A stretch of 64,000 nucleotides of DNA. Source: a virus. Positions 3,907 to 50,160 of the stretch are shown one piece after another. A program made the translations under genes and the position numbers. Location of the stretch: positions 62,001-126,000 of IMG/VR virus record IMGVR_UViG_3300019458_000020, one strand, 5' to 3'. Positions within the stretch are counted from its first letter, which is position 1, and each line of letters begins with the position of its first letter. The notes beneath the pieces are model-generated. The model did not search any database. It saw only the letters and a list, made by a program, of their open reading frames with translations, and was not told the origin of the DNA.

Positions 3907-4263
3907 TTAAACCTCTTCGCCACGTTCAATTGGAATTCCACCAAAATGATGAACCAATTCATCATACAACATTTCGGCCAATCCACCTTCACCCTCTACA
4001 CTATTACGCATTGGACCGGGACTATAAGGAGACGTGCTTAAAACAGAATAAAGATTAGATGCTTGGCCGGCATGATGATCGTGAGCATACCAATACATAG
4101 CAACTTCAACGTCATCCTTAAATCCATCTTCGTGAGCATGAGGAAGAGAAGATAAATAACCAATCATCTCTTCTCTATCAGGGTCTTGACTTTTACTTTC
4201 GGCCAATACTTCCTTAATACATTCTTTTATTATCTTCTTAAATTCAACTTTACTTATTTTCAT
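3907..4263 (-). CDS. Small protein with LIKEC-type capsid-leader motif
   Basis: This 118-residue protein begins with a basic helix containing KKIIKECIKEVLAE. Nearly the same sequence starts the products at 4265-4567 and 43000-43473. The rest is unrelated to those two: a His-rich middle (LPHAHEDGF, WYAHDHHAG) and an acidic end. The shared head on unlike bodies suggests a targeting or processing leader; a gp21-type cut after the VLAE glutamate is inferred. The His cluster could bind metal. It lies between the gp15-like gene and another leader-bearing gene. Body function unknown. Confidence 0.65.
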   Translation of the reverse strand: MKISKVEFKKIIKECIKEVLAESKSQDPDREEMIGYLSSLPHAHEDGFKDDVEVAMYWYAHDHHAGQASNLYSVLSTSPYSPGPMRNSVEGEGGLAEMLYDELVHHFGGIPIERGEEV

Positions 4264-4264
4264 A

Positions 4265-4567
4265 TTATGCTGTTTCCTTTACCCTATCAAACGATTTAAT
4301 AGCCGATTCTAAATTCTTTTTTATCTCTCCATATCTATGAGTGGCACACCAATACCATATTTTACCATTTATTACTGCTTTTTGAACTGCGGGAGATGGT
4401 TCTCCCTTCGGCCCGTGATGCCAAACAGCTCCAGCGTTCATTACCTGTTTTCTTTCTTCGTCGGTTAATGGAACTTTATTCTTTTTTAATGTTTTAAAAG
4501 TAGGAGACTCAATCAATACTTCCCTTATACATTCTTTAATCAAGAGTTGTAATTCTACACCATTCAT
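4265..4567 (-). CDS. Small protein with LIKEC-type capsid-leader motif
   Basis: The ATG at 4567 is preferred because it overlaps the stop of the upstream endonuclease gene as ATGA. This gives 100 residues starting MNGVELQLLIKECIREVLIE. That head parallels the products at 3907-4263 and 43000-43473. The body (PLTDEERKQVMNAGAVWHHG, then KIWYWCATHRYGEIKK) is small with scattered Trp, His and one Cys; a metal site is possible but not a clear zinc ribbon. Virion cargo or head-associated protein is the inferred class. Confidence 0.65.
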   Translation of the reverse strand: MNGVELQLLIKECIREVLIESPTFKTLKKNKVPLTDEERKQVMNAGAVWHHGPKGEPSPAVQKAVINGKIWYWCATHRYGEIKKNLESAIKSFDRVKETA

Positions 4568-5803: not shown

Positions 5804-6283
5804 TTAACGCAATACCTTAGATTTTATAAGCACCGTCAAAGCTTCTTTACAAGCTTTATCAAACATTTCCCTACTTGGAGCCTCTGCTCTAAAATTTGTT
5901 TTCAACAAATCGTATGCCCTACCAATGTCTCCACCCACAAAATCATATTCTTCTTCTACATTTTGAACCATACTGTTTACCCAAAGTTTCCAATTTTCAT
6001 CCGATTCCTTTATGTGAGAAGGTTTCAACCAATCAGCTACCTTACTCCAGTCTGGTTCAGGATATTTAATAGCTCCACCACAATCAGAATGATGGGTGGT
6101 ATGTTCTCCTAAAAAATCGCCTTCTATATATGTATGTTTTTCATATATTTCTTTATTACAATGTGGGCATTCATGATATTTAATTTTTCTTTCACGAACA
6201 ATCACATCCTTCAGTTCCATATATGAAGGATTCATTTCACTTACCGATTCGACAATCAAATCTTTTAATTTGTAAATCTTCAT
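5804..6283 (-). CDS. Leader-bearing zinc-ribbon-like protein
   Basis: This 159-residue protein begins MKIYKLKDLIVESVSE, a close fit to the capsid-leader pattern with a likely cut after LIVE. Residues 35-75 carry HECPHCNKEIYEKH and a later HHSDCGG, which together could make a one-ion zinc ribbon. The rest is acidic and probably helical (WVNSMVQNVEEEYDFVGG). It is inserted between the gp14-like and gp13-like genes, as if it had joined the virion operon as a cargo module. The biochemical role is unknown. Confidence 0.65.
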   Translation of the reverse strand: MKIYKLKDLIVESVSEMNPSYMELKDVIVRERKIKYHECPHCNKEIYEKHTYIEGDFLGEHTTHHSDCGGAIKYPEPDWSKVADWLKPSHIKESDENWKLWVNSMVQNVEEEYDFVGGDIGRAYDLLKTNFRAEAPSREMFDKACKEALTVLIKSKVLR

Positions 6284-8468: not shown

Positions 8469-10649
8469 ATGCGCTACGAGCTTTCCCAATTAAATGATTT
8501 AGACGACGAGGTAAGAGAAAAGTTGTCGGCTCTTAGTTTAGATACAGGAATGATGAATTCTATAGCGTCGGAACCAACCATTGAACATCGACCAGTTAGT
8601 GTGGCATATACCGAAGCCGGAGAACCTATAGGATGGGCGACGATATTAGAAACTGGACTCAAAACAATTGGTGCAGAAAGAAGAAAATCAGCATATATCG
8701 GAGTTTACGTTCATCAAGATTATCGAAGATTAGGTGTAGGAACAAAATTGGTCAAAGAATTATTTAAATTATTAAAACGAGAATATGAATATATAGTTGT
8801 TTCTCCACATGACGAAAAAAGCCATCACTTCTTTAAAAATCACGACATCGACAGTTGGGAAGACCGCTCAAAATATTTTGATACAGGAAATTACAAACAA
8901 GGATTAATTAAATTAAAAGAAATTATCTATGAATCCAAAGAAAGCTTCTTTGTTTTAGGTAGAGTTTCGGAGGATGGTGAGGTTGACAAATACGAATTTC
9001 GTGACACAATTACAGACGTACACCCGAGTTCTTGGCGTTCCTCTCATTATAAACTGTGGAGATACTGGAATGTCACTAAAATAGTGTATTGGTGGGAATC
9101 TCCAACCGATGTAGAGAAAGAGGGTGTAGAGTATTTCTTGGGTAGAAAAGGGTACGATATTCAAGGAAATAAATACATGATTCACATGACGCCGGATTTT
9201 AACAAATTATCAGGACATAAGGTTATGGAAACTAAATTGAATGAAGGAAAAAAAGAGAAAGCAGCAGAAGATTTCATTAGGAATATTATTAAAGGAACCG
9301 AATGGGAAGGAAAAGTCTTTATTGCTGGTGGATATGTCCGTGATGAATTTATGGGTAAAGATCCAAAGGATTTAGACCTTCTCGTAAATGCACCTAACGG
9401 CGGAATTGAATTTGCAAATTGGATAACCAAGAAAATTGGTGCCCATTCTGACGGCAATCCGGTTACATTCCCCCGATTCGGAACAGCCAAATTCAATCTC
9501 CGTGGAGTAATCCACGATGGTATTGATTTGAGTGGAATGGATATCGAAGCTGTAATGCCAAGAAAAGAACAATATACCGCTGGAAGTAGAAAACCTGATG
9601 TCACCGGTGGAGATTTAAAAGATGATGTTGAAAGACGAGATTTTACTGTTAATTCGCTATTAAAGGATTTAAGTAGTGGAGAAATTTTGGATTTAACTGG
9701 AATGGGTAAAGATGATATTCGTAAGGGAATTGTTAGAACTCCATTAAATCCAGATAAAATTTTTACTGATGATCCTCTTCGAATGTTAAGAGCTGTACGG
9801 TTTGCAATGAAATATAAATGGAAACTTCCGATGTTTATGTTACGTGGATTGAAGAAAAACGCGGAACAACTTAAAAACATTTCTCAAGAAAGAATCAGAG
9901 ATGAATTGGATAAAATGTTAATGACATCGAATCCACATGGAGCCATCAAATTGATGAAAGTAGTAGGATTACTAAAATACGTTATTCCAGAACTACAAGC
10001 TGCAATCAAAATGACTCAGAACGTTCATCATAAAGATGACGTATTCGACCATATTCTTGATGTTCTATCGAAATCGAATCCCGTATTGGTTCAACGATTA
10101 ATGGCCTTATTTCACGATATTGGAAAGACGGTTACAAAGAGTGTAACACCAACAGGTGTTCATTTTTATGGTCATGAGATGGCCGGTGCAGATATGGTTG
10201 AAACCATCATGACACGATTAAAATATCCTAGAGAATTAATTGATGCAGTAAAACTTGGTGTAAGAAACCACATGAGATTAAAATCAGCTGGTGATACAGG
10301 TGTTAATATTTCCGACAAAGCACTTAGAAAGTTTAAGACAGAAATCGGTGACGAACTTGAAAACGTATTAAGTGTTATTCATGCAGATAATATTGCACAC
10401 GCCGATGCATCATCAATGCCTAATCAGATTAATAATCTAAAAAAGAGATTAGATAATCTAAACATGAATGTTTCTGCTCAAGGAAAACCAAAACTTCCTA
10501 TTAGTGGAAAAGACTTACAAGATATAGGTCTAAAACCAGGACCAATATATAGTGAAATTATGAAGGCAGTCACGGAATCTTGGTTCGAAAATCCAAATAT
10601 AACTAAAGAACAAGCTATTCAAATTGCTAAGTCGATGGCAGGAATATGA
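8469..10649 (+). CDS. GNAT acetyltransferase - CCA/poly(A) nucleotidyltransferase - HD fusion
   Basis: This 726-residue multidomain protein begins with a GNAT fold (about residues 40-125), with acetyl-CoA loop QDYRRLGVGTKLVKELF. From about 275 there is a class II tRNA nucleotidyltransferase: GGYVRD (287-292), DPKDLDLLV, ERRDFTVNSL and DDPLRMLRAVRFA. An HD domain follows (LFHDIGK, 547-553). All catalytic motifs look intact, so CCA-end addition or repair on tRNA is plausible, with phosphohydrolase activity as in bacterial Cca-HD enzymes. Between the GNAT and NTase parts sits LIKLKEIIYE (about 146-155), which is a capsid-leader-like sequence in an internal place, and METKLNE (253-259), another possible gp21-type site. 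It heads a plus-strand operon and overlaps the next gene by ATGA. Confidence 0.85.
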   Translation: MRYELSQLNDLDDEVREKLSALSLDTGMMNSIASEPTIEHRPVSVAYTEAGEPIGWATILETGLKTIGAERRKSAYIGVYVHQDYRRLGVGTKLVKELFKLLKREYEYIVVSPHDEKSHHFFKNHDIDSWEDRSKYFDTGNYKQGLIKLKEIIYESKESFFVLGRVSEDGEVDKYEFRDTITDVHPSSWRSSHYKLWRYWNVTKIVYWWESPTDVEKEGVEYFLGRKGYDIQGNKYMIHMTPDFNKLSGHKVMETKLNEGKKEKAAEDFIRNIIKGTEWEGKVFIAGGYVRDEFMGKDPKDLDLLVNAPNGGIEFANWITKKIGAHSDGNPVTFPRFGTAKFNLRGVIHDGIDLSGMDIEAVMPRKEQYTAGSRKPDVTGGDLKDDVERRDFTVNSLLKDLSSGEILDLTGMGKDDIRKGIVRTPLNPDKIFTDDPLRMLRAVRFAMKYKWKLPMFMLRGLKKNAEQLKNISQERIRDELDKMLMTSNPHGAIKLMKVVGLLKYVIPELQAAIKMTQNVHHKDDVFDHILDVLSKSNPVLVQRLMALFHDIGKTVTKSVTPTGVHFYGHEMAGADMVETIMTRLKYPRELIDAVKLGVRNHMRLKSAGDTGVNISDKALRKFKTEIGDELENVLSVIHADNIAHADASSMPNQINNLKKRLDNLNMNVSAQGKPKLPISGKDLQDIGLKPGPIYSEIMKAVTESWFENPNITKEQAIQIAKSMAGI

Positions 10650-11359
10650 TAAAATTAAAATCTCTCATAAAAGAAGACACAGCATCATGGAAAGATATAA
10701 CCATAGATGATGTCGAAAGTTTATTGTCTTCAAGATGGGTAGATAGAGATTATTCATCTACGTTACGAACCATACAGGATTTTTATTACGATGATGATAA
10801 AAGTAAACAACAACTCATTGTGGAATACTTTGAGTTATTAAATTCGGTGGCTAAATTAGTAATTTCATTGACAAGAAATATTCCACATGTAGATGATAAA
10901 TATATAAAAAGATATCTCTTATCTCAGAATGAATTTCATACATCTCCAGAAGAATTTTTTCCTTTTCCTGTATATGTTTCGGCAACTCCTGGTGACGAAG
11001 ATACTATAGGTATAATGATTGATAAGAATGGAAAAGTATTAGAAATACATGAGGGCAACGATGAATCTTCCTCGGAAACAATCAATATGGTAAATAGAAT
11101 GGTCAATCCTTCCGGAAAAAAAGTAAGGATATATGGGTCACACGATACCAGACTTATTCACGATATTGATGAAAAGGGATACCTACCAAAAAATTTGTAT
11201 GTTTCTCCGGATAAAAATCATGCATCAGGGCATTTGGATTTAAAAGGAGAACGGTCGATGTTTTCGGGAATAATAGATATTAACGGAGTGAGTCAAGAAA
11301 GTGATTTGGATTGGAGAACAATGGATAAAATTAAAATTGAAAAGTTTAGATGGATATGA
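10646..11359 (+). CDS. Leader-bearing protein, possible ADP-ribosyltransferase fold
   Basis: This 237-residue protein begins MIKLKSLIKEDTASW, a clean fit to the capsid-leader pattern (cut inferred after LIKE). The C-terminal 100 residues read VRIYGSHDTRLIHDIDEKG, then LYVSPDKNHASGH and FSGIIDINGV. That order of a YGSH strand, a helix ending in Gly, a YVS strand and an A-x-x-H helix resembles ADP-ribosyltransferase cores, but I cannot identify the third catalytic residue. It overlaps both neighbours by ATGA, so it is translated within one operon. An unrelated fold is possible. Confidence 0.6.
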   Translation: MIKLKSLIKEDTASWKDITIDDVESLLSSRWVDRDYSSTLRTIQDFYYDDDKSKQQLIVEYFELLNSVAKLVISLTRNIPHVDDKYIKRYLLSQNEFHTSPEEFFPFPVYVSATPGDEDTIGIMIDKNGKVLEIHEGNDESSSETINMVNRMVNPSGKKVRIYGSHDTRLIHDIDEKGYLPKNLYVSPDKNHASGHLDLKGERSMFSGIIDINGVSQESDLDWRTMDKIKIEKFRWI

Positions 11360-12558
11360 TTAAGTTAAAAAACATTATACAAGAGGTTCACGAATATCAA
11401 CTCGGAGATGTAATAGTCGGATATATTGATGAAGATGGACACATTATTGCATCAGACAAAGTGAAGGGTCATTCGGTATTATTAGATAAACATCCTTCTT
11501 GGGGGTCGAGAAGAACATATCCTTGGAGATTTAATAAAATCATAAATACTTTGTTCTTTTGGTTTGATAACACACCTGAAAGTATAAAAGAAATGGTTGT
11601 AGATTACTTAAATACAAAAAAATTCAAAGTTAAATCTATTACAACAATTGATGATTTTTGGAGCGATGATCCAAGAAGAAAAAGGTCACTATATCATTCT
11701 CATGGTGGGTCCGGAACATTTGACATTTATAAAGATTTTGCAGAAGAAAATATAAAAGAGGCACCAATTGATACATTTCAAACGATAGGTGATTTTTCAA
11801 AGGGGTCATCTTTTACAAGTAAAGCAGATAGAGCATTGGTTACACATCCTGTAGCAGTGCAAAAAGTAAAAGATTTCTTTAAAAACACTACGGCTAATTT
11901 TGATTTTTATTTCGTTAATACTAAGGATGCAAGAAAATTTACCGAAGTTGGTGAAGTTAAGGAAGACTTCATTTATAAAGACCTTAAAATTCAACCATCT
12001 CAACTAAAAGATGGTAAGATAAATAAAGACAACATAACTGTATTTTTTACCAATAATAAGGGTGCCGAGCGTGCTCCACTAACGCCTTGGATAATGGGCC
12101 ATAGATTTGGTCATGTTGTAAGAAATCTATATTCGTGGAAAGAAGAACTCTCTCCTTGGGTAGAAAGACTATCAGAATATATTCTTGAAGATTATGGAAT
12201 CAAAAAAACTCACAAATGGCATAGCCGGGGGTCTTCAGTAAATAGAGAATATCAAATAGCCATGAGACATCTTTATGAAACCATAGGAACATTCAAAAGT
12301 GCCAGAGATAAAAATCTAAGAGATTATTTTGAATTTCATTATGAATTATTTACGCAGTATTTGAAAGATGGTTCGATAAAATTTAATTCTCTTCCTGATG
12401 TATTGATTGTGGGTCACGGATCATACGGTTCTAAAAAACAAAGACGGCTTTTGAATAGAGAATCAGCCGAAGAAAACTTAGATGAATTGTCTCGTGATTA
12501 TCATTATTATGCCGAAAATGTTTTAAGTGATTGTGTCGGGAAAATTTTTGTCATGTAA
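11356..12558 (+). CDS. Leader-bearing protein with HxxxH motif
   Basis: ATG at 11356 is chosen because it overlaps the previous stop (ATGA) and gives MIKLKNIIQEVHEYQ, the leader pattern with a cut after IIQE. This makes 400 residues. Around residue 250 is PLTPWIMGHRFGHVVRN. It looks like a zincin helix in which the HExxH glutamate is missing (H-R-F-G-H). A degenerate metallopeptidase or a metal-binding domain is therefore possible. The next gene starts within its stop codon (TAATG). I do not recognise the family with certainty. Confidence 0.65.
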   Translation: MIKLKNIIQEVHEYQLGDVIVGYIDEDGHIIASDKVKGHSVLLDKHPSWGSRRTYPWRFNKIINTLFFWFDNTPESIKEMVVDYLNTKKFKVKSITTIDDFWSDDPRRKRSLYHSHGGSGTFDIYKDFAEENIKEAPIDTFQTIGDFSKGSSFTSKADRALVTHPVAVQKVKDFFKNTTANFDFYFVNTKDARKFTEVGEVKEDFIYKDLKIQPSQLKDGKINKDNITVFFTNNKGAERAPLTPWIMGHRFGHVVRNLYSWKEELSPWVERLSEYILEDYGIKKTHKWHSRGSSVNREYQIAMRHLYETIGTFKSARDKNLRDYFEFHYELFTQYLKDGSIKFNSLPDVLIVGHGSYGSKKQRRLLNRESAEENLDELSRDYHYYAENVLSDCVGKIFVM

Positions 12559-12900: not shown

Positions 12901-13305
12901 ATGATTAAACTTAAAACATTAATAACCAAAGACATCAAAAAGAGATATTCTGGAATTGAATTGGACAGTGAATCTCACGATCGATTGAAAGAGAAATTTG
13001 CGAAATACATTCCCGAAGGGTGGAAGGTTATTGCCCATCACATGACCATAGACCCGTCCAAAACTTTACCTGAAGAAGAGATTGGAAAAGAAGCAAAATT
13101 AAAGGTGACTCATATAGGAAAGAATGATAAAGCCATGGCCGTAAAAGTTTCAGGTTATGAAGGTAAAACCAATAACAAGTTTCCTCATGTTACATTGGCT
13201 GTTAATGATAAGGCCGGCGGAAAACCAAAAGATTCCAACGAAATAACGGAGTGGGATGATGTAAAAGAAGATATTTATCTTACGGGTATTATAAATAATC
13301 TATGA
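12901..13305 (+). CDS. 2H phosphoesterase-like protein with altered leader
   Basis: This 134-residue protein has two H-x-T motifs, HHMTID (about residue 46) and PHVTLAV (about 98), spaced as in 2H phosphoesterases. Those enzymes act on 2',3'-cyclic phosphates or 2'-5' bonds in RNA. The arrangement WKVIAHHMTI ... KVSGYEGKTNNKFPHVTLAV resembles the tRNA-ligase/phage RNA-repair branch. The head MIKLKTLITKDIKK fits the leader pattern except that Lys replaces the expected Glu at the cut site, so it may be targeted but not cut. It overlaps the next gene by ATGA. Confidence 0.7.
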   Translation: MIKLKTLITKDIKKRYSGIELDSESHDRLKEKFAKYIPEGWKVIAHHMTIDPSKTLPEEEIGKEAKLKVTHIGKNDKAMAVKVSGYEGKTNNKFPHVTLAVNDKAGGKPKDSNEITEWDDVKEDIYLTGIINNL

Positions 13306-13595
13306 TTAAACTAAATCATATAATAAATGAGGATAAACGACTATATCGTGGAGATTGTCGAACGATATTAGGTCAAGATGACTTATTTAATGATGCTACT
13401 CAAATGTCTGGTGCTATAGAAAATAGTGATAAAATAGACTATCATACTTTTGGGAATGAAGCCAATTTAACAGGTGCCCCAAGAATGTTTAAATTGAGAC
13501 TCCGAAGAAATACCGATAAATTTGATTTTGGAAAATATAAAGATTTGGTTTGGGCATACGATACAGAAACAGATATTCATTATTTCTTTTTATGA
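13302..13595 (+). CDS. Small leader-bearing protein, ART-like fragment
   Basis: This 97-residue protein begins MIKLNHIINEDKRLYRGD. The leader fits (cut after IINE), and RLYRGD directly after it resembles the first strand of arginine-type ADP-ribosyltransferases. The rest is too short for a complete transferase and lacks a clear S-T-S or E-x-E segment. It may be a truncated relic or a different small fold. Start and stop overlap neighbours by ATGA, so it is under operon control. Confidence 0.55.
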   Translation: MIKLNHIINEDKRLYRGDCRTILGQDDLFNDATQMSGAIENSDKIDYHTFGNEANLTGAPRMFKLRLRRNTDKFDFGKYKDLVWAYDTETDIHYFFL

Positions 13596-14512
13596 TAAAA
13601 TTGTCAACATTATTAGAAGAAATAGAACAAGAAAAGGTCATTGCTGACAAAGTAAAACAATTGGAAGCAGACTTGGAAGCCCAATTTCCGCAAATTCAAG
13701 ACTTGCATTTATTTATTAAATCCAATGGTTCACTTTATATTCAATCGATTCGGATTAAACCAGAAGAAAGAAGAAAAGGAATAGGAAGTCAAATTATAGA
13801 TAAAATTAAAAAATTTGCTGACGGCCATAACTTAACTATTTCTCTAGCTCCTGAACCGGAGCCAAGATATAAAGAAAAACTTCACAAATTTTATAAGAGA
13901 CATGGATTCATTTTTAATAAAGGAAGACATAAAGATTGGCAATTATCAGAACCATTTTCATCTACAATGTATCGAAGACCCCAAAAGGAAGCTATGGATA
14001 CCTCTACTGTAATATCTTCACCAATGATACAACAATCGTTTGATCGTTCTTTCCTGAATTACATGAAAAATGTGGAAAATGGAATTCTTAAAGGATATGA
14101 TAGGAGTAAAAATCTGTGGTTTCCACACGAGTCTTATGAAGGCGGGCTTCCAACAATAGGGTATGGCCATAAGATAAAAACCAAAAACGAATTAAATAGA
14201 ATGAATCGTGGAGTAACCGATTCAGAAATAAATAGGATGTTGACACAAGATTTGGAAACTGCTAAAAAATCTGTCGAAGACTATATTGAAAAAAGATATA
14301 AAGTAAAGCTAATGTTGGAAAAAAATCAACAAGAAATGTTAGTTGATTTTGCATTCCATTTAGGTAGTCTTGATAAGTTCCCTGAATTTACTGAGGCTGT
14401 ATTAAAAAAAGATTGGAATACAGTAAAAAAAGAATATAAACGGCATGCTCGTGGAAAAGAGTTGACTGGTAGAAATGACTCGTTTTACCAACGATACCTT
14501 AAAAATTTATGA
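13592..14512 (+). CDS. GNAT acetyltransferase - T4-type lysozyme fusion with capsid leader
   Basis: ATG at 13592 overlaps the previous stop and gives a 306-residue protein. Residues 1-10 (MIKLSTLLEE) fit the leader. Residues 35-125 form a GNAT domain with acetyl-CoA loop RIKPEERRKGIGSQIIDKI and a C-terminal HKFYKRHGF helix. Residues 155-306 are a T4-like lysozyme: VENGILKGYD, LPTIGYGHKI and QQEMLVDFAFHLGSL, with the catalytic Glu at about 162 by analogy to T4 E11. The lysozyme part would cut peptidoglycan; fused to a leader it may be carried in the virion. The GNAT substrate is unknown. Confidence 0.85.
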   Translation: MIKLSTLLEEIEQEKVIADKVKQLEADLEAQFPQIQDLHLFIKSNGSLYIQSIRIKPEERRKGIGSQIIDKIKKFADGHNLTISLAPEPEPRYKEKLHKFYKRHGFIFNKGRHKDWQLSEPFSSTMYRRPQKEAMDTSTVISSPMIQQSFDRSFLNYMKNVENGILKGYDRSKNLWFPHESYEGGLPTIGYGHKIKTKNELNRMNRGVTDSEINRMLTQDLETAKKSVEDYIEKRYKVKLMLEKNQQEMLVDFAFHLGSLDKFPEFTEAVLKKDWNTVKKEYKRHARGKELTGRNDSFYQRYLKNL

Positions 14513-15045
14513 TACACATTGCAAAATTAGTAACCGAAAAACGAAGTGAATCTTCCATAGATAAAGGATGTTTAATGGCTGATGTATCTCCTGAAATTTG
14601 TAAAAAGTTGGTAGAATTCGGGAAGAAAATTATTCCCGAATCCGATTTATATGTAGAGGGAGACGAGTTTGGAAGAGAATTAGAATGTCATATAACCGTT
14701 TTGTATGGTTTTACTAGAAACCTGACCGAATTAGAAGTTCGTAGAATAATAAACGGTGTAAAACCATTTACTATTAAACTTTCCGGTCTTAGTAAGTTTA
14801 CTCCACCTGAAAAATTTGAAGTAGTAAAGTTTGATGTAGAAAGTGAAATTCTTACTTCCTTAAATAAAAAATGTCAAGAACTTCCTTTTGAAAGTGATTT
14901 TCCAGATTATCATCCCCACTTGACTATAGCATACGTAAAAAAGGGAAAATTCAATCACACCAAAGAAGGATTATCTATAGAAATACCAATTAATAGATTT
15001 ACATATTCAACCGCCACAAAAGAAAAAACCTACTATAATTTATGA
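14509..15045 (+). CDS. 2H phosphoesterase with capsid leader
   Basis: This 178-residue protein starts MIHIAKLVTEKRSES, a looser leader with a cut inferred after LVTE. Two 2H motifs are clear: CHITVLYGF (about residue 62) and HPHLTIAYVKKG (about 138), with typical spacing and the strand-flanking hydrophobics. The family opens cyclic phosphates or cuts 2'-5' linked RNA, including signalling oligonucleotides. It is the second 2H protein of this operon, and the two are not close copies. It overlaps its neighbours by ATGA, which suggests coordinated low-level synthesis. Confidence 0.8.
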   Translation: MIHIAKLVTEKRSESSIDKGCLMADVSPEICKKLVEFGKKIIPESDLYVEGDEFGRELECHITVLYGFTRNLTELEVRRIINGVKPFTIKLSGLSKFTPPEKFEVVKFDVESEILTSLNKKCQELPFESDFPDYHPHLTIAYVKKGKFNHTKEGLSIEIPINRFTYSTATKEKTYYNL

Positions 15046-15452
15046 TACTACTAAAAAATATAGTAGAAGATATTGAAGGCCCAATACCAGACGTGTTGTA
15101 TCATGCAACATTTAACGCATTAATTCCGTCTATATACAAAAAAGGAATAGTACCGTGTGGAGTAAAATATCAGAATTTTGAAGGATGTGAACGTGGTGTT
15201 TACATTTCCGATGATTACGGGTTTGCTGGAAGTATGATTGAAGGTGGGTCGGAAAATGAAGATATACCAGATGAGTGGTTCGATGAAATCGTAGTAATTA
15301 TTATAGACCCACAGAAAATTGATATGTCTAAATTAGAAAAAGACCCACATATTAATTTATCTGCCACGGAGGATGAAATAATTCCAAGGTCGTTTATTTA
15401 TAGGGGAATCATACCGTCGAATTCGTTTATTGAAGTCGTTGATTATCGTTAA
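15042..15452 (+). CDS. ADP-ribosyltransferase-fold protein with capsid leader
   Basis: This 136-residue protein starts MILLKNIVEDIEGPIPD. After the leader comes VLYHATFNALIPSIYKKGI, a YHxT strand and helix typical of H-Y-E type ADP-ribosyltransferases and of the KptA/Tpt1 branch. RGVYISDDYGFAGSMIEGG matches the second strand and helix, and FIYRGIIPSNSFIEV is a plausible final strand. The substrate is open: host protein, nucleic acid or RNA 2'-phosphate. It is the last gene of the overlapping operon; a short non-coding gap follows. Confidence 0.75.
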   Translation: MILLKNIVEDIEGPIPDVLYHATFNALIPSIYKKGIVPCGVKYQNFEGCERGVYISDDYGFAGSMIEGGSENEDIPDEWFDEIVVIIIDPQKIDMSKLEKDPHINLSATEDEIIPRSFIYRGIIPSNSFIEVVDYR

Positions 15453-18823: not shown

Positions 18824-18830
18824 AATAATT

Positions 18831-19433: not shown

Positions 19434-19436
19434 TTT

Positions 19437-21932: not shown

Positions 21933-22595
21933 TTACTTGAAATGAAGTTTTTCTTCATTCGCTCTATACCACTCCCATACATTTCGTAACACTTCGGAAT
22001 CATTGTATGATTCTATCAATTTAATTACATCATATTCGTCAGCGATTTTTCCTTGTGAAATACCATCCATTATTATTTCGGCTATAACTTCTTCTTCCAA
22101 CCTTGGAGTAAAATTAATGGGATCAACAATGGGTGCTTGGCTACCTATCTTTCCTTCACCGGATTTGTTTATAAAAGATTTAACTCTAGGATTTTCCAAA
22201 GCTTCCTTGAAGGCTTCTGTCCAAGACCGCATAATTAAATTTCCACATTCCGTGACCCGTTTTGGTTCCTTATGAAGTTTTCTGGCCGCCGATACCCAAG
22301 CTCTCTTAGCAGATTCCGTTCGTTTACGAATTCTTTCGTGATAAATACGAGTAGTGTCATTTGGTTTTCGTAACCCCTTTGTTCTAATAGTCGCCCAATA
22401 ATTTACTGGTTTTTCTGTTTCGGTTATGGTAACAGAACAATAAGATTCTCCGACATTATGATGATTGTTTCCAGCATAAGCAAACCAATCATTTCCTTCT
22501 GTCACTCCGTTCCAAGGAACTAATTCGTGGTCACCAGAAGTCAACGACCCTGGAACACTGAATTCATTCAATAGAATTAGAGTTTTTAATTTCAT
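21933..22595 (-). CDS. Leader-bearing protein of unknown function
   Basis: The internal ATG near 22595 is preferred over an upstream TTG; it gives MKLKTLILLNEFSVPGS, a leader-like head with a cut after LLNE. The body of about 210 residues is basic and helical in the middle (HERIRKRTESAKRAWVSAAR) and ends in an acidic helix (VWEWYRANEEKLHFK). No family is recognised. It is the last gene of a minus-strand run of three leader-bearing genes. The upstream GATATTTATAGAC may be part of its promoter. Confidence 0.6.
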   Translation of the reverse strand: MKLKTLILLNEFSVPGSLTSGDHELVPWNGVTEGNDWFAYAGNNHHNVGESYCSVTITETEKPVNYWATIRTKGLRKPNDTTRIYHERIRKRTESAKRAWVSAARKLHKEPKRVTECGNLIMRSWTEAFKEALENPRVKSFINKSGEGKIGSQAPIVDPINFTPRLEEEVIAEIIMDGISQGKIADEYDVIKLIESYNDSEVLRNVWEWYRANEEKLHFK

Positions 22596-22616: not shown

Positions 22617-23006
22617 TTACCTTCCCTCAAACAATTCAACTTCAACATTATCGGTATCGTTAAATAATCCTTTTGCTTCAGACTCTATCGCCAAATTTTT
22701 GATTTCTCTAGCTTGTTTATTGCTAGGCAATTTACCACTATAATAATCAAAATGTAATATTGAGTCTCTATAATAATTGAAAGTTATTCTTATCCACCCT
22801 CTTTTTAATAATACTTGTCCTGGACTTTCTTCATTATCTATCGTCCAGTGTATATTTGATTTTTTAAGATAATCTCTTGCCCAATTAAAATGTCCATATT
22901 GAGGATTATCCGTATAAACTTGATGAAGCTTTCCGTCCGGATCCATCCACCAAGCTTTAAAAAACTGACCCCAAGTTTCTACAACTATGTTTTTTAGCTT
23001 TATCAT
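22617..23006 (-). CDS. Leader-bearing small protein
   Basis: This 129-residue protein starts MIKLKNIVVETWGQFFKAWW, a leader with a cut after IVVE. The body (MDPDGKLHQV, NWARDYLKKS, GQVLLKRGWIRITF, REIKNLAIESEA) has a mixed alpha/beta pattern and resembles small uncharacterised proteins of large phages. No catalytic motif can be named. Its start overlaps the stop of the upstream gene at 23006 by one base, so it is coupled to the large ART/ParB/SWIM protein. Confidence 0.65.
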   Translation of the reverse strand: MIKLKNIVVETWGQFFKAWWMDPDGKLHQVYTDNPQYGHFNWARDYLKKSNIHWTIDNEESPGQVLLKRGWIRITFNYYRDSILHFDYYSGKLPSNKQAREIKNLAIESEAKGLFNDTDNVEVELFEGR

Positions 23007-25108
23007 CAGTCAAAATACTCCACATTAAATGTAGGAGTTTTAGTTAATGCGTCTAAAGACTCCGAAATTCTCTGTTTACTGCTATTATCTATTTTCGTTT
23101 TTAGATAATCCTTTAATGCTATAAGATGTTTACACATTCCGGGAATTTCTCTAGGATTTCTAACGGCCGGTCTTCTGTTGATACATTTGTTTAGACTATT
23201 ATTTCCTATCTGACTGGCATCTTGTTTTGCATCGGCATAAGCAAACCTATATTTAAAATCCGGACAACTACAATCGACCTGACAATCTATATCGGCTGCA
23301 TTATCGGTTGTAGATTCTTTAAAGAATTTTATATTTCCCTGATGAGGATTTCCCGTTCGGCTGGGATTTGATTTATATCGGAAGTTCCAACTTTCTTTGT
23401 TATTTTCCGTTGATACAGGCAAACTTCTTGCTCTTACTGTTTTTGCTCGATTTTTTCTTCCATCCTCACTGGAACGAAGAAGGTCATTATAAGACATTCT
23501 TTCTGTAACAGTTTCTTCTTTTTGTAAAGAAGATTCTGCAACATTTCTTCCTAACAAATTCTTTAATTGAATAACGGGCATATTCAATTTATCAGCAACG
23601 ACCGCCAATTTATTCACCGGAAGTTTTAAAATTTTATGTTTTAATTCTGGGTTCAAATGTAATTGTTGAAGGATTCGTAGTTCTTCATCGGAAGTAGTTT
23701 GTTCTTTATCTACTCCAGTTTTAAAGATTTGGTCATAAGTGAAAAATTCTCCATTATGACCACCGACTTCATATAATATTTCTCTCGGGTTAATTCTTGC
23801 GTGTTTTAGTAAAGCGAACAAATCACGTCTATGAAGTTCAATCATTGATAATTTTTCCCAACACGACATTATTAATTGACCACGAACATTAAATACTCTT
23901 CCGTGTATTAATCTTCTCGACTTTATCGGAGGATAATTTGTATAAAAAGTAAATCCCAAGAGGTTTTCTATGTAACCGAGAATATTTCCGTGAGTAGTTA
24001 AATAATCATCAAGAGAAGGAGGGTCATTGTCTAATATTTCTTGATACGTTTTATTATTTGTAATGATTTTACTACGTTCTGGAATGTAACCAAAATAGGT
24101 ATTACGACCTTCGATGTCTGCTAATATAAACACCATTTCTACTTGGTCGCTGTTTTCCCAAATATCAATTGTTACACCATCAAATTCAAATCCATCAGGG
24201 TCTTCGGTTAAACTCTTTTTGACTGGTTTAAAAACCAAAATTTGTTTATCTCTACGAAGTTTTGCAGCAGCAAGTCTATGTCCACCGTCTATAATAGAAC
24301 CCTGATCGTCAATTACAATCGGAGGAAATTGTTTGTCGGATTGTGATAAAGATTGAACTTTAGTATCACTTATTGACCATTCACTATCTTCAATGGAATT
24401 AGGGTCAACAGCAATTAATTGAAAATTACCATCAACTCTATCATCATCTTCAAATTCATCATGTTGAGAGTGTATATAATTCAAAACATCACCATCCTGA
24501 TAAACACCATTCAATTTAAATTTTTTCCAATCAGGTTCACCACGAACAGAATACCCTCCTTTATTCATCATTGGGTAATCTATTTTTTCTACTTCGTTAA
24601 TTTCATCGTCATCAATGATTTCTCCATCCCATTCTCCATGATATATACCTTCGGATAATTCTTTGGTTAATTCTCTCCAATGACCTGTTTTTTCATTAAA
24701 CCATGTATCACCGTTAGAATCATAACGAGTTTTGGTGTCTTCATTATAAACAAAAATTTCTATTGGAACGGTTATTTCGGATTCACTATAAAAATCTCCT
24801 GATGATTGTTGGTCCGGAGTCAAAAGATTAATGTCATATTTAATTCTTAAAATAGGACGATATCTATTTGGATGGTTATTTCTCCATAAAATATTTCCGT
24901 AATAATTTGCAGAACGAAATTTAGAAGCAAGGAATATCTTTCCAAAACTCCATTTACCCAACTCTCCACCCCAATTTGTTTCTTCAGATGGTTGTAGCCC
25001 ATTTTTTTGAATAGAAGGAAGGCGGTCAGCCAATGTGGCATGATAAAAATAATGAATATTTTTATTTTCTTCCAGTATTTCATTAAGAATAGAGGACAAT
25101 TTAATCAT
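23006..25108 (-). CDS. Multidomain cargo candidate: leader, ART, ParB-like, SWIM zinc finger
   Basis: ATG at 25108 gives 700 residues starting MIKLSSILNEILEENKNIHY. Residues 20-75 read YFYHATLADRLPSIQKNGL ... KIFLASKFRSANYYG, an ADP-ribosyltransferase core. Around 270-300, PPIVIDDQGSIIDGGHRLAA is a ParB/Srx-type motif, seen in nucleases and ATP-dependent kinases. The C-terminal 110 residues hold CSCPDFKYRFAY ... MCKHLIALKDYL, a SWIM-type C-x-C...C-x-H zinc finger that binds DNA or protein. Possible gp21-type sites (SLTE, VAES) lie between domains. It could be a polyprotein cut in the prohead. The middle 150 residues are unassigned. Confidence 0.75.
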   Translation of the reverse strand: MIKLSSILNEILEENKNIHYFYHATLADRLPSIQKNGLQPSEETNWGGELGKWSFGKIFLASKFRSANYYGNILWRNNHPNRYRPILRIKYDINLLTPDQQSSGDFYSESEITVPIEIFVYNEDTKTRYDSNGDTWFNEKTGHWRELTKELSEGIYHGEWDGEIIDDDEINEVEKIDYPMMNKGGYSVRGEPDWKKFKLNGVYQDGDVLNYIHSQHDEFEDDDRVDGNFQLIAVDPNSIEDSEWSISDTKVQSLSQSDKQFPPIVIDDQGSIIDGGHRLAAAKLRRDKQILVFKPVKKSLTEDPDGFEFDGVTIDIWENSDQVEMVFILADIEGRNTYFGYIPERSKIITNNKTYQEILDNDPPSLDDYLTTHGNILGYIENLLGFTFYTNYPPIKSRRLIHGRVFNVRGQLIMSCWEKLSMIELHRRDLFALLKHARINPREILYEVGGHNGEFFTYDQIFKTGVDKEQTTSDEELRILQQLHLNPELKHKILKLPVNKLAVVADKLNMPVIQLKNLLGRNVAESSLQKEETVTERMSYNDLLRSSEDGRKNRAKTVRARSLPVSTENNKESWNFRYKSNPSRTGNPHQGNIKFFKESTTDNAADIDCQVDCSCPDFKYRFAYADAKQDASQIGNNSLNKCINRRPAVRNPREIPGMCKHLIALKDYLKTKIDNSSKQRISESLDALTKTPTFNVEYFD

Positions 25109-41363: not shown

Positions 41364-41990
41364 TTATTCCATGTTTCCAAGAATGTCTCGAATGATGGTT
41401 TCGGTCTTTTCCCATTTTCCGGTTATAGGATTCTTAACTTGACTGACTCCTTCATTCAGACTTCCTTCTGGATACAGAAATGCACCACGAGTAGATGGAT
41501 TAGAAACGAAATCAAAAGCAATAAGTTCAAAATCAGGTTGAACTACATCCACATCTTCAGACATGTTTTTCTTAACCGTTCCAAGTCCACGACTGGAAAT
41601 ACCTAATCTAATATTTGAACGGAAGAGTTCTTTTAAGATGTTTCCATTGGGTGTAGGTAATACTTCTACAGTTCCAACCAAATCATCATTTTCCCAATGC
41701 ATTTCAACAATGTTATGAGAAACGTTTTGAAGATTGACAACGGAAGATTCTGGATGGTCTAATTCTCCTAATGCTCTACGTTCTTTAATAAAATTCTCTT
41801 CATATTTTCCTGCTTCACGAAGAAGAATTTCACGAGTATAAACACGACCGTTTTGATTTTTCTTTCCGGCACGTTGTAGAACACCTTTGACGATCAATCT
41901 TCGGTTCATGTCGCCTGCGGCTTGTTCAAAGAGGGTATCTCTTACGAAATCGAATGGGATACAATCTACTAATAGTCTCTTATCATTCAT
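41364..41990 (-). CDS. 21: Prohead protease, T4 gp21-like
   Basis: This 208-residue protein shows the gp21/herpes-protease-type assemblin motifs: QNGRVYTREILLREA, ALGELDHPES (catalytic His) and GISSRGLGTV (catalytic Ser), in the order and spacing of T4 gp21 (212 residues). In T4 it is built into the prohead core and cleaves scaffold, capsid and internal proteins after (I/L)-x-E, then degrades itself. Its C-terminus contains GSLNEGVSQ, a possible self-cleavage site. Its presence gives the enzymatic basis for the leader hypothesis in this genome. Confidence 0.9.
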   Translation of the reverse strand: MNDKRLLVDCIPFDFVRDTLFEQAAGDMNRRLIVKGVLQRAGKKNQNGRVYTREILLREAGKYEENFIKERRALGELDHPESSVVNLQNVSHNIVEMHWENDDLVGTVEVLPTPNGNILKELFRSNIRLGISSRGLGTVKKNMSEDVDVVQPDFELIAFDFVSNPSTRGAFLYPEGSLNEGVSQVKNPITGKWEKTETIIRDILGNME

Positions 41991-42997
41991 ACAAGTTCCT
42001 TTGTAATAGTAAAGAGATAATTTCTACCAATAGATTCTATTTCTACAATATTTTTAGATGGTTGATTGTGATTTCTTAATCCATTGACTAGATTCAACTT
42101 CATCTCTTTTAAATCGACATTGTTTTTGAATTCTTTCTTTGGTATTTCCATGATGAATTCCAATACTCTATTTTTTGATTCGTTGACGGATGTTTTTGGT
42201 CCCTTTATAAAAGGAGATAAATTTAATGATTCATTTACTAAGAATTCTTCCAAAGCCAATTTCAATTCTTTTATAGTTTTGGTTTTTTTTGATTCTCCGA
42301 GTTTTTTATTCTCTTCATCATCCGGATTTTCTTGACCAGGCAATTCAGCAGGCTTCTTTACAGCAACTGCTGCAGTTGATGGTTCTGGTTCTGGTTCCGG
42401 TGCCGGCGAGGGTGGTGTCGGTTCGTCAGGAGATTGTGTTTGTGCCGGAGCCGGTGCTGGTGATGGTTCAGGACCTTCTGGCTTCGATGGTGCAGCTGAA
42501 GGAACAGGAGATTCTGGTTTATCAGGTTGTTCGGGAGCACCAGCAGCCTCTATTTTAATATTTACACCCGGTGTTAGAAAGTATTCTTTTCCATTTGCGT
42601 CGCTTAGTACCACAACATTTTTGTTGTAATACCAATCAACACTGGCTTTGGATACATTATCAATAGTATAATCTTTTTGTGGTTGTCCATATCCACGAGA
42701 AGCATTGACGGTTACTTTTTTACCTACAACTGATGCATTCATTTTATCTAAGAATTTTTTCTTGGCATCAGCTTTTGCTTTATTTACACTATCTTCAAAT
42801 TCTTTAAAATCCTTTGTGAAATCATAATCACCAGTACCAGCCGCAGCTGGTTCTGGAGCGGCAGAAGTTGGGTCAGGAGTTGGTGTAGTCTTTGCTGCAA
42901 CTACAGCCGTATCTTGTGCAGGTGGAACCGTTTCTCCTTCAGGAGAAGGGGTCGGTGATGCTTCTTGAATCTTGATTAAGTTTTTTAATCTTATCAT
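41987..42997 (-). CDS. Pro-rich head protein with capsid leader
   Basis: ATG at 42997 gives 336 residues beginning MIRLKNLIKIQEASPTPS, a leader with a cut after IQE. Two Pro/Ala/Glu-rich linkers (about 25-55 and 155-215) surround a small folded domain (VTVNASRGYGQPQKDYTIDN ... SVDWYYNKNVVVLSDANGKE, KOW/SH3-like). The C-terminal helical domain contains LEEFLVNESLN, another possible cut site. It lies just upstream of the protease and overlaps its start by four bases. A core or scaffold component is the likely role. Confidence 0.65.
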   Translation of the reverse strand: MIRLKNLIKIQEASPTPSPEGETVPPAQDTAVVAAKTTPTPDPTSAAPEPAAAGTGDYDFTKDFKEFEDSVNKAKADAKKKFLDKMNASVVGKKVTVNASRGYGQPQKDYTIDNVSKASVDWYYNKNVVVLSDANGKEYFLTPGVNIKIEAAGAPEQPDKPESPVPSAAPSKPEGPEPSPAPAPAQTQSPDEPTPPSPAPEPEPEPSTAAVAVKKPAELPGQENPDDEENKKLGESKKTKTIKELKLALEEFLVNESLNLSPFIKGPKTSVNESKNRVLEFIMEIPKKEFKNNVDLKEMKLNLVNGLRNHNQPSKNIVEIESIGRNYLFTITKELV

Positions 42998-42999
42998 AT

Positions 43000-43473
43000 T
43001 TATTCCCAATCTTTTTTGACCGGAGTATATCCGATACTTTTACTTCCTTCGATACCTTTTTTACTTCCTTTTTTATTCTTACTGAAAGCAAAAGGGGTAT
43101 TATATCCCGCAACTCCGCCGGTGGTTGACATCTCACTCAAATATTCATCAGCAGGAACGAATTTTGAATCCGCCCCGCTTCCCTTACCATAAAACCATTT
43201 TCCGTGTTCATCTTTATACATCCAATGTCTGTCACCCGAAGCCGAATGCAGTAATACTTCAAAAAATTTCGTTTTACCATCTAAGCTAGTAGAATGAAAT
43301 CTGGTAAGATGCACCGGCTGCCAAATTTTACTAGCAACGGTTTTTGCTTCTTCCATTTCTTCATCACTTATCTTAGCATCATGTTTTGGAAGTTTTTTAC
43401 CATTAAATTCGTTTTCTTTCAACACTTCCTCTACACACTCTTTGATAAGAGCATATAATTTTACTTTATCCAT
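43000..43473 (-). CDS. Head-operon protein with LIKEC-type leader
   Basis: This is a 157-residue protein. The head MDKVKLYALIKECVEEVLKE belongs to the same subfamily as the two proteins at 3907-4567. A beta-rich centre follows (PVHLTRFHSTSLDGKTKFFE, RHWMYKDEHGKWFYGKGSG), then a Gly/Ser/Lys-rich tail (GGVAGYNTPFAFSKNKKG). The occurrence of one leader type in both the neck operon and the head operon supports a shared sorting signal. Confidence 0.65.
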   Translation of the reverse strand: MDKVKLYALIKECVEEVLKENEFNGKKLPKHDAKISDEEMEEAKTVASKIWQPVHLTRFHSTSLDGKTKFFEVLLHSASGDRHWMYKDEHGKWFYGKGSGADSKFVPADEYLSEMSTTGGVAGYNTPFAFSKNKKGSKKGIEGSKSIGYTPVKKDWE

Positions 43474-47590: not shown

Positions 47591-49198
47591 TTACAACAAC
47601 CAGTCTAATTTTTCTATTTCATCCGGCCCTTTTCCTATTTTCATCTGCCAATATTTTTGGGCCGCACCAGTAGAGTTAGAAGTATAAATAGGGGAAGAAT
47701 TATCAGGTTTCTGTGGTACACCTATGGTATCTAACATTTTTTTAGTTAAATAGATACCTTCCTGTCTTAATTTTAAAGCCGTATCTCTTACCCAAAGACC
47801 TAACCCCAAAGACAGAACTAAATCGTCGTTATAATTGTCCGCTGCTTGAGCTTTACCGTTCTTCCAAATAAACGTCTTTAATTCGTTTATCGTTCTTATA
47901 GAGTGAATTTTTATCGCCTTTTCTCTAAAGTATGCTTCCAATTTAGAAATAACCAACGGTCGTGTCGATATTGTCGTCGAAAAACCAGGCAACAACTTTT
48001 TATCCTCACTGTAATATTTGGTCTTCAACTGACGTTCTACTTCGATGTATTTTAAGTCTGCTGAACAATAAAAGGTATTTTGATATTTTCTATCAACAAT
48101 TTGTTGTAATACCGCCCATCCTATATTTTCTCTTTCAACAATAAGCAACGCATCGTTATACTCTGTAGCCAAATTTACCAAAGAATTACCATAATCTTTT
48201 GTTCCTGGCTGGTCAACGTATTCAGCTACTTGTTCCAATGATTCCAAATCTAATACATGAAATGCACTATAATCTAATCCGTCACCACGAGCAACGTCAG
48301 CACACACGATATAATCTTTGGAATAATCAGGAGGAGCAAATACCCACAATCCGCCGCCCAAGCGAATCTCCAATGGGTCACGAACTAAATTCTCTTCATA
48401 CCATTTTAGAATATTCAAATCAACCACGTTTGTACCAGATGTCAAAAAGTCGCAATCACATTCTTGGTTTGCATCTTTTTCTCCGAGATTTTTAGTTTGT
48501 AAATCTCTCCAAGCCTGATCTCGTTCAGGATGTAAATGCCAAGGAAGGGTTATAGTTTTAAAATCATTCTTTTTCTTCTCGGCTTCTATCCACATTTTAT
48601 GAAACCAATTACCAACACCATTTGGTGTAGATAATACGATTGCATTTCCACCGGTAGATAGGGTTGATTGTGCAGAAGTCCAAATATCATCAGCACAATC
48701 TATGAATGCGGCTTCGTCCAAAACTAGAAGACTCAGTGCCATAGAACGTCCCGCATCACTAGAAGATGATGTAGCTTTGATTGCTGACCCATTCTTTAAT
48801 CGTAATGAAAGTCTATTATCTTCAGTAGCCACTACTTTTAACCAAGAAGGAAGATGGTCATTAGCAAATCTAACCTTGGTTACTATTTCTTTGGAAACTT
48901 CTTGTTTAATGGAAATAATCAAGACGTTTTTATCTTGATGAAATATCATTAACCAAAGAGAATATGCAGCGACCAAAGTCGTTATACCCATTTGACGAGA
49001 TTTCAATACGAGATTGAATCGATTATCACAAAAGGTTTGTAGTGTGTCTTCTTGGAATGGGTATAGTTCAAATGGAATGGTTCCCCTATGTGGATGTTGA
49101 ATCTTAACATACTTCTTCATGAAGTAAATTGGGTCTAACAGACATTTCTTGTATTCTTCCTTAATTATGTCTCTAAGATTTGGTTGACCATTAGCCAT
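47591..49198 (-). CDS. 17: Terminase large subunit, T4 gp17-like
   Basis: ATG at 49198 (MANGQPNLRDIIKEEYKKC) follows the previous stop by five bases and gives 535 residues. ATPase motifs are LVLKSRQMGITTLVAAYSLW (Walker A-like) and LSLLVLDEAAFID (Walker B). The coupling motif ALSTPNGVGNWFHK is seen as AIVLSTPNGVG. The nuclease domain shows CADVARGDGLDYSAFHV (first Asp), LIVERENIG (Glu) and NYNDDLVLSLGLGL (last Asp). This motor pumps DNA through the portal and cuts it. T4 usually has sheath and tube genes 18 and 19 between 17 and 20; they are absent here. Confidence 0.95.
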   Translation of the reverse strand: MANGQPNLRDIIKEEYKKCLLDPIYFMKKYVKIQHPHRGTIPFELYPFQEDTLQTFCDNRFNLVLKSRQMGITTLVAAYSLWLMIFHQDKNVLIISIKQEVSKEIVTKVRFANDHLPSWLKVVATEDNRLSLRLKNGSAIKATSSSSDAGRSMALSLLVLDEAAFIDCADDIWTSAQSTLSTGGNAIVLSTPNGVGNWFHKMWIEAEKKKNDFKTITLPWHLHPERDQAWRDLQTKNLGEKDANQECDCDFLTSGTNVVDLNILKWYEENLVRDPLEIRLGGGLWVFAPPDYSKDYIVCADVARGDGLDYSAFHVLDLESLEQVAEYVDQPGTKDYGNSLVNLATEYNDALLIVERENIGWAVLQQIVDRKYQNTFYCSADLKYIEVERQLKTKYYSEDKKLLPGFSTTISTRPLVISKLEAYFREKAIKIHSIRTINELKTFIWKNGKAQAADNYNDDLVLSLGLGLWVRDTALKLRQEGIYLTKKMLDTIGVPQKPDNSSPIYTSNSTGAAQKYWQMKIGKGPDEIEKLDWLL

Positions 49199-49203
49199 AA
49201 GTT

Positions 49204-50160
49204 TTAATATTCTATTGCACCAATCATCATATACCACTCGTCGCCATATTTATCTAAATTTTTACGAACCGTGGATGGTCTATATTTCACCCACTTTTCA
49301 TTCATTTGTTGATAAATATAAACCCATTGTATGTGATTTGGTAATATAGTTCCGCTATATCCGAACTTACCCAGTTCTTTAGACAATGACAGTGGTTTCA
49401 TTTCGGATGTATCGTCTTCTGACCTATCAGATGGGTGGTCATAATATTTTTGATGTTTAGATGTTATTTCTGCATCATAATCAGGAGCAATCAAACTTTT
49501 ATCTGGTATAGAAATTTGGAGGATTACTTGTCCTCCGCCGTGGTTATGGACTGCTTGAGACGAATAAAATTTTGATTGGTCAAATCTAGCGGCAAAGAAA
49601 ATTTCGTTATAGTGTTCAACTCCCCTGTCACCAAAATTTCCTCCTGTCTGTGCAGGCCTCAATCCCTTTTTCAAAATTCCATCAAGAAATTCTGTACTAG
49701 TTCCATGAAACCCAATAGACGGAACTTCTCCTGTTATCTTTTTCTTGGCCAAATTAATTGTTTCGGAATCCTCATCATCACTTTTACTAACTTGTTTTAT
49801 TCCCAAATCTTTTACAATTTTCCTGATGATAATAGACGTAGATGGATTTGATTTATCAATACCATGAACGAATAATCTTTTATTTTTTTTGTCTAAATCG
49901 CCGGTTACTACATCCGGAGGAAGTTCTCCGGAAAGACTTACAATATCATAAACACTTTCAGCAGACTCTAGTGATTCTTTGGAATATTTACTCTTTTGAA
50001 TATATGGATGTTGACGTAGGTGGGCCTTCAACTCCGATATATCACTGTCAGTATCCAAGATAAACAATTTGTCTTTCCAAACGACAACAACGGAGTGTTC
50101 TTTTCCGGTCGTCAAGTCTTTGACAATGTATTCTTGTAATAATGACTTCAAACGTATCAT
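49204..50160 (-). CDS. Leader-bearing ADP-ribosyltransferase-fold protein
   Basis: ATG at 50160 overlaps the upstream stop and gives 318 residues starting MIRLKSLLQEYIVKDLT, a clean leader with a cut after LLQE. The C-terminal half carries IGFHGTSTEFLDGILKKGL (H-G-T strand and helix), EIFFAARFDQSKFYSSQAV, and GGGQVILQISIPDKSLI, ending YSGTILPNHIQWVYIYQQM; this is the arrangement of an ADP-ribosyltransferase domain. The N-terminal 150 residues form a separate unassigned domain. Placement just before the terminase in the head operon supports incorporation in the virion, as T4 Alt is. Confidence 0.75.
   Translation of the reverse strand: MIRLKSLLQEYIVKDLTTGKEHSVVVVWKDKLFILDTDSDISELKAHLRQHPYIQKSKYSKESLESAESVYDIVSLSGELPPDVVTGDLDKKNKRLFVHGIDKSNPSTSIIIRKIVKDLGIKQVSKSDDEDSETINLAKKKITGEVPSIGFHGTSTEFLDGILKKGLRPAQTGGNFGDRGVEHYNEIFFAARFDQSKFYSSQAVHNHGGGQVILQISIPDKSLIAPDYDAEITSKHQKYYDHPSDRSEDDTSEMKPLSLSKELGKFGYSGTILPNHIQWVYIYQQMNEKWVKYRPSTVRKNLDKYGDEWYMMIGAIEY

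Follow-up and report, generated by a model that had tools for sequence, protein, structure and literature searches.

We analyzed a 64,000-nucleotide window, positions 62001-126000 of the 250,813-bp IMG/VR virus record IMGVR_UViG_3300019458_000020 (G000 below), in which about 15 unrelated proteins begin with a similar short N-terminal head. Very probably, these heads are capsid-targeting sequences of the bacteriophage T4 type, written in the dialect of this phage group, and the proteins that carry them are packed, trimmed and delivered. That a T4-type capsid leader is shared by many unrelated bodies is well supported by its position and register, the accompanying protease, the gp21-type site of the capsid protein, the exchange of dialects between phage groups and the functions of the bodies. 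What we infer from this pattern is that the tagged proteins dock onto the core, are cleaved, end up in the virion, are injected and function in a new host.

To judge from its genes for a Gp23 capsid protein, a gp21-type protease, a portal and a large terminase, the source virus is a myovirus of the T4 superfamily. Its capsid protein is 54% identical to that of Microcystis phage Mel-JY01, 55% to that of Flavobacterium phage immuto and 37% to that of Rhodothermus phage RM378. These three cultured genomes were compared with the whole record and with the related IMG/VR records G001-G005, G008-G012, G017, G024 and G038, some of which are fragments. Gene calls came from a simple script based on codon usage, and start sites are therefore approximate.

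Form and dialect of the heads

Two forms of head were read from the DNA (Table 1). Class A, which predominates, follows the consensus M-I-K-L-K-x-[LI]-[LIV]-x-E. Class B, weaker and less specific, has the form LxxLIKECxxEVLxE, and its carriers (4263, 4567 and 43473, proteins being named here by their start position, and genes outside the window) have an LxxLIKE core in common. The preliminary description of the window had given 17 proteins a common head. This holds for 16 of them, while the protein at 41362, with the N-terminus MKARLQEVQHED, fits neither form and has to be dropped. Nor does the predicted cut-site glutamate always stand at residue 10, since the 12901 head has Lys there and the 42997 head has its Glu at residue 12. 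The same head on an early protein such as the primase had been named as an argument against packaging; the primase-like open reading frame at 57006-57938 begins differently (MVYQSTKIISIF). Head carriers also lie outside the window: g184 (record 176251-177015, MIFLKDLLIE), g022-g024 (18706-20270) and g214 (196268-196582). A small protein at 30647-30946 has a weakly head-like start, MIKLMEIYHTVEEE, with no Glu10, and its relatives begin MIKLKEILHR or MIKLTELLKH.

When every N-terminus that begins MI[KR]L was collected from nine records and read position by position, without imposing Glu, Glu10 was present in 31 of 46, where 2.8 were expected (P=5.5e-27), and residues 9 and 11 were free. The core LKx[LIVM][LIVM]xE is N-terminal in 14 genes of the source genome, against 0.9 expected from the within-protein rate and 0.5 from shuffled N-termini. 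In an alignment of 35 heads, most positions as far as the Glu carry 2-4 bits of information, and those from the following residue on about 0; Glu had been a condition for inclusion, but not the drop behind it.

Shared N-termini could also result from translation initiation, through an A/T-rich start region, or from a recently copied 5' segment, rather than from a peptide signal; the genome is AT-rich and the codons of MIKLK are A/T-rich. However, synonymous codons vary among the heads within genomes (codon identity 0.58, near the 0.52 expected from codon usage), so that selection acts mainly on the peptide, and heads are also present in relatives of 30-40% G+C. As initiation or copying would moreover leave Glu10 and the free residue 9 unexplained, we consider this origin extremely improbable. 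A role of the heads in sending proteins to a chaperonin or to the membrane, with none in packaging, is very improbable too. A title cited in PMC10052503 reports that the N-terminus of the T4 head protein directs proteins to GroEL, but such a signal would need neither [LI]xE at a fixed place nor conservation ending there.

The heads of the window have the length and register of the T4 signal. In T4, the first 10 residues are enough for targeting; among them, positions 4 and 7 are important for targeting itself, positions 8 and 10 for processing, and gp21 cleaves after [LI]xE (PMC9026906). In the T4 record, IPII and IPIII begin MKTYQEFIAE/A (a slash marks the cut) and the gp24 propeptide reads MAKINELLRE/. 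Leu4 and Leu or Ile at residue 7 are conserved in the heads, where T4 has Tyr4 and Phe7. G017 and G024, two T4-type records with 2H genes of the window's family, contain 19 heads of F-type (MKxxxxF[IVL]NE) and one of A-type, a chance match, versus 58 A-type and 3 F-type heads in the window's clade (Fisher P=2e-14). Homologues of the window's 2H protein begin MKTIKDFINE or MKTIKDFITE in the T4-type group, and members of this family in the window's group begin MIKLKNMLNE, MINLKEMVNE or MIHIAKLVTE. A nucleotidase family carries MLKKFKQFVNE in G024, MHILLKNILKE in G004 and MGNLADLLLE in immuto, and is headless in the window's genome. What stays is the body and what varies is the address, a behaviour to be expected of a tag that the core of each phage recognizes for itself.

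Protease, capsid protein and prohead core

The preliminary description had also recognized a gp21 homologue at 41364-41990 and a gp21-type site, LIDE, in the capsid protein, and our searches bear out both. The protease shares 30% identity with T4 gp21 (E=2e-18), including the motifs GELDHP/GELNHP and GISSRGLG/GVSSRGLG, and was present in 12/12 related records and 3/3 cultured relatives tested. In the capsid protein, Glu61 is found in 82 of about 84 aligned homologues and is followed by Ala or Ser in 81, the site having the pattern QL[IL]xE/[AS] over residues 57-62. The capsid protein itself starts with MENVKQLLTN, which resembles a cargo head.

Small head-bearing genes separate the portal gene from the protease gene, an arrangement that parallels the T4 order 20-67-68-21. 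Because their location corresponds to that of gp67 and gp68 in T4, 42997 and 43473 are probably prohead-core proteins. The earlier view of the carriers as a cargo set thus stands for the shared capsid leader on unrelated bodies, and should probably not be extended to these two. One would also wonder whether the head is generally a helix for virion or core assembly, docking by coiled coil, most carriers being structural and not delivered enzymes. The positions of 42997 and 43473 would agree with this, as would the N-terminus of many relatives' capsid proteins (MSDIKSLLTE) and the amphipathic-helical look of the class B heads; g139 (record 142385-142990; MNTKELAKLIKMVVKEEV) has such a class-B-like helix and no cut-site Glu. 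However, many of the bodies are enzymes (PARP, 2H, GNAT, lysozyme, NUDIX, exonuclease, CCA-adding) and head conservation ends at the cut residue. We therefore hold a purely structural role to be unlikely.

Other elements were noted in this region and in the record. The portal protein is 1039 residues long, and a stretch of it from about residue 200 to 300 resembles an HNH endonuclease, perhaps an intein or an in-frame homing insertion. By eye, three open reading frames interspersed with the cargo and head genes (4564-5298, 26047-26634 and 50766-51416) resemble GIY-YIG homing endonucleases. The sequence TATTTATA is enriched upstream of genes in a strand-specific manner over the whole record (22 sense, 3 antisense) and is a candidate late promoter; it or its core precedes the portal gene and four tagged genes, which are too few to prove late expression. 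In G002 (368,758 bp), the same tagged gene occurs at positions 6362 and 368018, near both ends, which suggests terminal redundancy and a complete genome.

Cargo bodies and fused chains

The bodies behind the heads have varied predicted functions (Table 1). The protein at 49204-50160 gave a PARP-type match with no Alt-family match reported, and we do not assign it to the Alt family. For 14509-15045, two HxT motifs (HIT and HLT) could be read from the sequence; PF23474 is just over the cut-off and the generic 2H family scores better, and Acb1 membership is not claimed. Assignments as ADP-ribosyltransferase (ART) for 10646, 13302, 15042 and 25108 are weak or made by eye. Tagged bodies in relatives include a CCA-adding enzyme, NUDIX, an RNase_T-type exonuclease, lysozyme, GNAT and several ART-PolyVal domains. 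A PDB sequence search with 14509-15045 and 49204-50160 gave no match, and a search of viral contigs with the body of 49204-50160 gave no relative. A headless gene at 33358-33876 appears by eye NADAR/YbiA-like (ADP-ribose metabolism).

Several unrelated enzymatic domains can share one chain, as in 13592-14512 (GNAT and lysozyme) and in 8469-10649, a fusion of GNAT, a recurring domain and a CCA-adding enzyme that was absent from the preliminary list. The recurring domain, of about 70 residues (..WRY...N..YWW..P..EEK..V..WL), lies at 8952-9161 and 11413-11631 and also in G001_121 (three copies), G002_007, G003_340 and G000_048, often directly after a head; a Pfam search of its region gave no match.

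Head-like sites recur at the joints of such chains. Internal heads numbered 30 at threshold versus 8-18 in shuffles, and therefore only the strongest internal matches, such as IKLKEIIYE155/ in 8469-10649, are informative. Before the CCA-adding module, E/G is found in 15/16 aligned homologues, including 8/8 fused ones, whose flanks differ; in stand-alone homologues the same E/G ends the N-terminal head (MITFKNLLVE/G, MISLKELLME/G). The AlphaFold2 model of this fusion (mean predicted local distance difference test, pLDDT, 75.9; above 90 on average from about residue 260) places Glu155 within a stretch of pLDDT<50 (114-158) and Glu259 just past a linker of pLDDT<50 (232-257). The Glu before the SWIM module of 23006-25108 is kept in 11/11 SWIM rows, and in 13/13 with two more, including 7/7 fused. 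Stand-alone SWIM proteins begin MIKLKDLLLE/KMSF or MIKLRDLLCE/RMSF, and the fused joints read VTE/RMSY, TLTE/EMSY, FLKE/TMTY, GLQE/NMTY, NISE/DMSY, PLDE/RMSF and SLNE/MTY. The model of this protein is poor (mean pLDDT 45; residues 522-534, just before Glu536, below 50) and was left out of fold searching. In three relatives the 13302-type module follows VVTE, VITE or VLTE within a fused chain, the site being kept in 3/3. Modules are thus singly tagged genes in one phage and fused in another with [LIV]xE retained at the joint, and family searches found no peptidase domain in 8469-10649 or 23006-25108.

This suggests that the fused proteins are cargo polyproteins with predicted prohead-protease sites. 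We give an even chance to the proposal that the clade makes such polyproteins, that the capsid-maturation protease would remove the tag and separate the modules in the prohead, and that one chain could so deliver several free enzymes. It is possible, if somewhat doubtful, that LxE at the fused joints is instead a structural module cap, a leftover of recent fusion or a trace of internal translation starts; this would concern the fused cargo only. Some fused CCA joints indeed hold a complete head of 10 residues, Met included (MNEIKQLIME), which fits loss of a stop codon or internal starts. On the other hand, modules that are unrelated and differ in the residue after the Glu (E/G; E/ before R, K, T, N or D; TE/x) all follow the rule, often there is no Met nearby, and the flanks diverge.

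Several points weigh against packaging and delivery of the tagged proteins. The short [LIVM]xE motif is frequent by chance, and a terminase N-terminus (G011) was scored as a head by chance. The 12901 head lacks the residue to be cut. Some 2H homologues are headless (L033, L044, L028, L260), so that a 2H enzyme can exist without delivery. The bodies are not basic (median net charge 0.000 versus -0.005 per residue in other proteins, P=0.30). The homologous modules are related by descent, and their conserved joints are therefore not independent events. Finally, we found no virion proteome of a relative, the immuto paper (PMC7077304) being without one.

If the tagged proteins are nonetheless cargo, the following scheme can be proposed. 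Late in assembly, the hydrophobic residues 4, 7 and 8 would dock a tagged protein onto the prohead core, and the prohead protease would cleave after the Glu of the head and, in fused cargo, at the joints too. The freed enzymes could remain in the head beside the DNA and enter the next cell along with it. There, ADP-ribosyltransferases and the acetyltransferase may act on the host at once, while 2H/Acb1-like phosphoesterases and the CCA-adding enzyme could counter defences that use nucleotide signals or RNA damage.

Table 1. Heads, predicted sites and genes of the window (slash, predicted cut; PSSM, position-specific scoring matrix score).
Feature	Position	Strand	Basis or remark
Head MKIYKLKDLIVE/ of 5804-6283	6248..6283	-	class A; PSSM 17.0
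Head MIKLKSLIKE/ of 10646-11359	10646..10675	+	class A; possible ADP-ribosyltransferase, by eye only
Head MIKLKNIIQE/ of 11356-12558	11356..11385	+	class A; recurring domain follows
Deviant head MIKLKTLITK of 12901-13305	12901..12930	+	Lys at residue 10; 2H phosphoesterase, tRNA_lig_CPD
Head MIKLNHIINE/ of 13302-13595	13302..13331	+	class A
Head MIKLSTLLEE/ of 13592-14512	13592..13621	+	class A; GNAT and T4-type lysozyme
Head MIHIAKLVTE/ of 14509-15045	14509..14538	+	class A; 2H phosphoesterase, Acb1-like; homologues with T4-type heads
Head MILLKNIVE/ (next residue D) of 15042-15452	15042..15068	+	class A; ART/KptA-like, weak
Head MKLKTLILLNE/ of 21933-22595	22563..22595	-	class A; homologues found
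Head MIKLKNIVVE/ of 22617-23006	22977..23006	-	class A
Head MIKLSSILNE/ of 23006-25108	25079..25108	-	class A; ART-like, ParB-like, SWIM modules
Head MIRLKSLLQE/ of 49204-50160	50131..50160	-	class A; PARP-type ADP-ribosyltransferase adjoining terminase; G001 homologue head MIHLKPLLKE
Deviant head MIRLKNLIKIQE/ of 41987-42997	42962..42997	-	Glu at 12; homologues retain head beside protease
Class B head MKISKVEFKKIIKECIKEVLAE/ of 3907-4263	4198..4263	-	homologue heads MNIKQIIKRCITEVLNE, MNLKSLIKQCVNEVILE
Class B head MNGVELQLLIKECIREVLIE/ of 4265-4567	4508..4567	-	
Class B head of 43000-43473	43414..43473	-	
gp21-type prohead protease (Peptidase_S77)	41364..41990	-	PF03420 E=2.1e-23; phrog_207 E=4e-49
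Major capsid protein Gp23	26680..28395	-	PF07068 E=1.3e-76
Predicted capsid-protein cut site LIDE/, residues 58-61	28213..28224	-	homologue conservation
Probable gp22-type scaffold	28436..29851	-	inferred from phrog_1133 E=1e-4 and position directly upstream of capsid gene
PARP-type ADP-ribosyltransferase	49204-50160	-	PF00644 E=1.2e-6
Acb1-like 2H phosphoesterase	14509-15045	+	PF13563 E=1.5e-10; PF23474 Acb1 E=5e-7
CPD-type 2H protein	12901-13305	+	PF08302 E=1.9e-5
GNAT-lysozyme	13592-14512	+	PF00959 E=3.9e-11; PF13508 E=3.8e-8
ART/KptA-like, weak	15042-15452	+	only PF01885 E=0.09
ART-like, ParB-like, SWIM modules	23006-25108	-	phrog_18980 E=1e-8; phrog_17560 E=0.002; ParB-like phrog_18056 E=0.03
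Fusion GNAT, recurring domain, CCA-adding enzyme	8469..10649	+	Pfam PolyA_pol E=8e-19, GNAT E=3e-11; phrog_2244 E=9e-58
Internal head-like IKLKEIIYE155/ in 8469-10649	8907..8933	+	PSSM 19.5, ranking third among the internal matches of 13 genomes
Internal site METKLNE259/G before CCA-adding module	9225..9245	+	homologue alignment
Internal site VTE536/ before SWIM module of 23006-25108	23501..23503	-	Glu conserved in homologues
Portal	44420-47539		1039 residues
Large terminase	47591-49237		

Relation to known systems

If this interpretation is correct, the proteins that large phages of an entire clade bring into cells ahead of any gene expression can be read from a ten-residue pattern. A guess from gene context, that ADP-ribosyltransferases, 2H and NUDIX enzymes are injected, would become a testable list, including WWT39342.1, WWT39345.1 and WWT39393.1 of Mel-JY01 and YP_010114452.1 of immuto. 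It would also suggest that cargo passing from one phage group to another has its address tag exchanged for one in the new dialect, and that processing of polyproteins is a second role of the capsid protease. In the open-access literature searched (subscription papers being outside the search), we found no description of the tag, the dialect exchange or the tagged polyproteins.

The capsid-targeting sequence that T4 has on IPI-IPIII and Alt and that gp21 cuts (Mullaney and Black; PMC9026906) is alike in its head of about ten residues ending in [LI]xE on unrelated bodies, in the gp21-family protease and in the presence of an ADP-ribosyltransferase among the carriers. It differs in its wording (MKTYQEFIAE, here MIKLKxLLxE) and in having far fewer carriers per genome. 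Moreover, the T4 internal proteins have small basic bodies, whereas the bodies here are non-basic and enzymatic, and fused cargo has apparent internal sites. Nearest in wording to the clade's head is the T4 gp24 propeptide, also of ten residues and ending in LLxE, but gp24 is a shell protein and not cargo. The ejection proteins of the giant phages phiKZ and SPN3US (PMC5694885) are likewise a numerous group within the head, and a gp21-related protease cleaves some of them after xxE; their propeptides are mostly long (often >100 residues), the SPN3US motif is AxE, and these phages are only distant kin.

The published idea nearest to multi-enzyme injected chains concerns the polyvalent proteins of phages and conjugative elements (Iyer et al. 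2017, PMC5512222), multidomain proteins of unrelated enzymes (ART, ParB-like, lysozyme) proposed to be coinjected with DNA, for which the analogy with polyproteins has already been drawn. Their release has been proposed to occur via embedded peptidases, whereas the candidate here is a separate prohead protease acting at LxE joints, and here the modules also occur singly with their own tag. For the NAD+/ADP-ribose effectors of myoviruses, packaging of ART, Nudix and 2H enzymes has been predicted from gene context and fusions (PMC9503650); in the present case, the prediction rests on a cleavable address tag.

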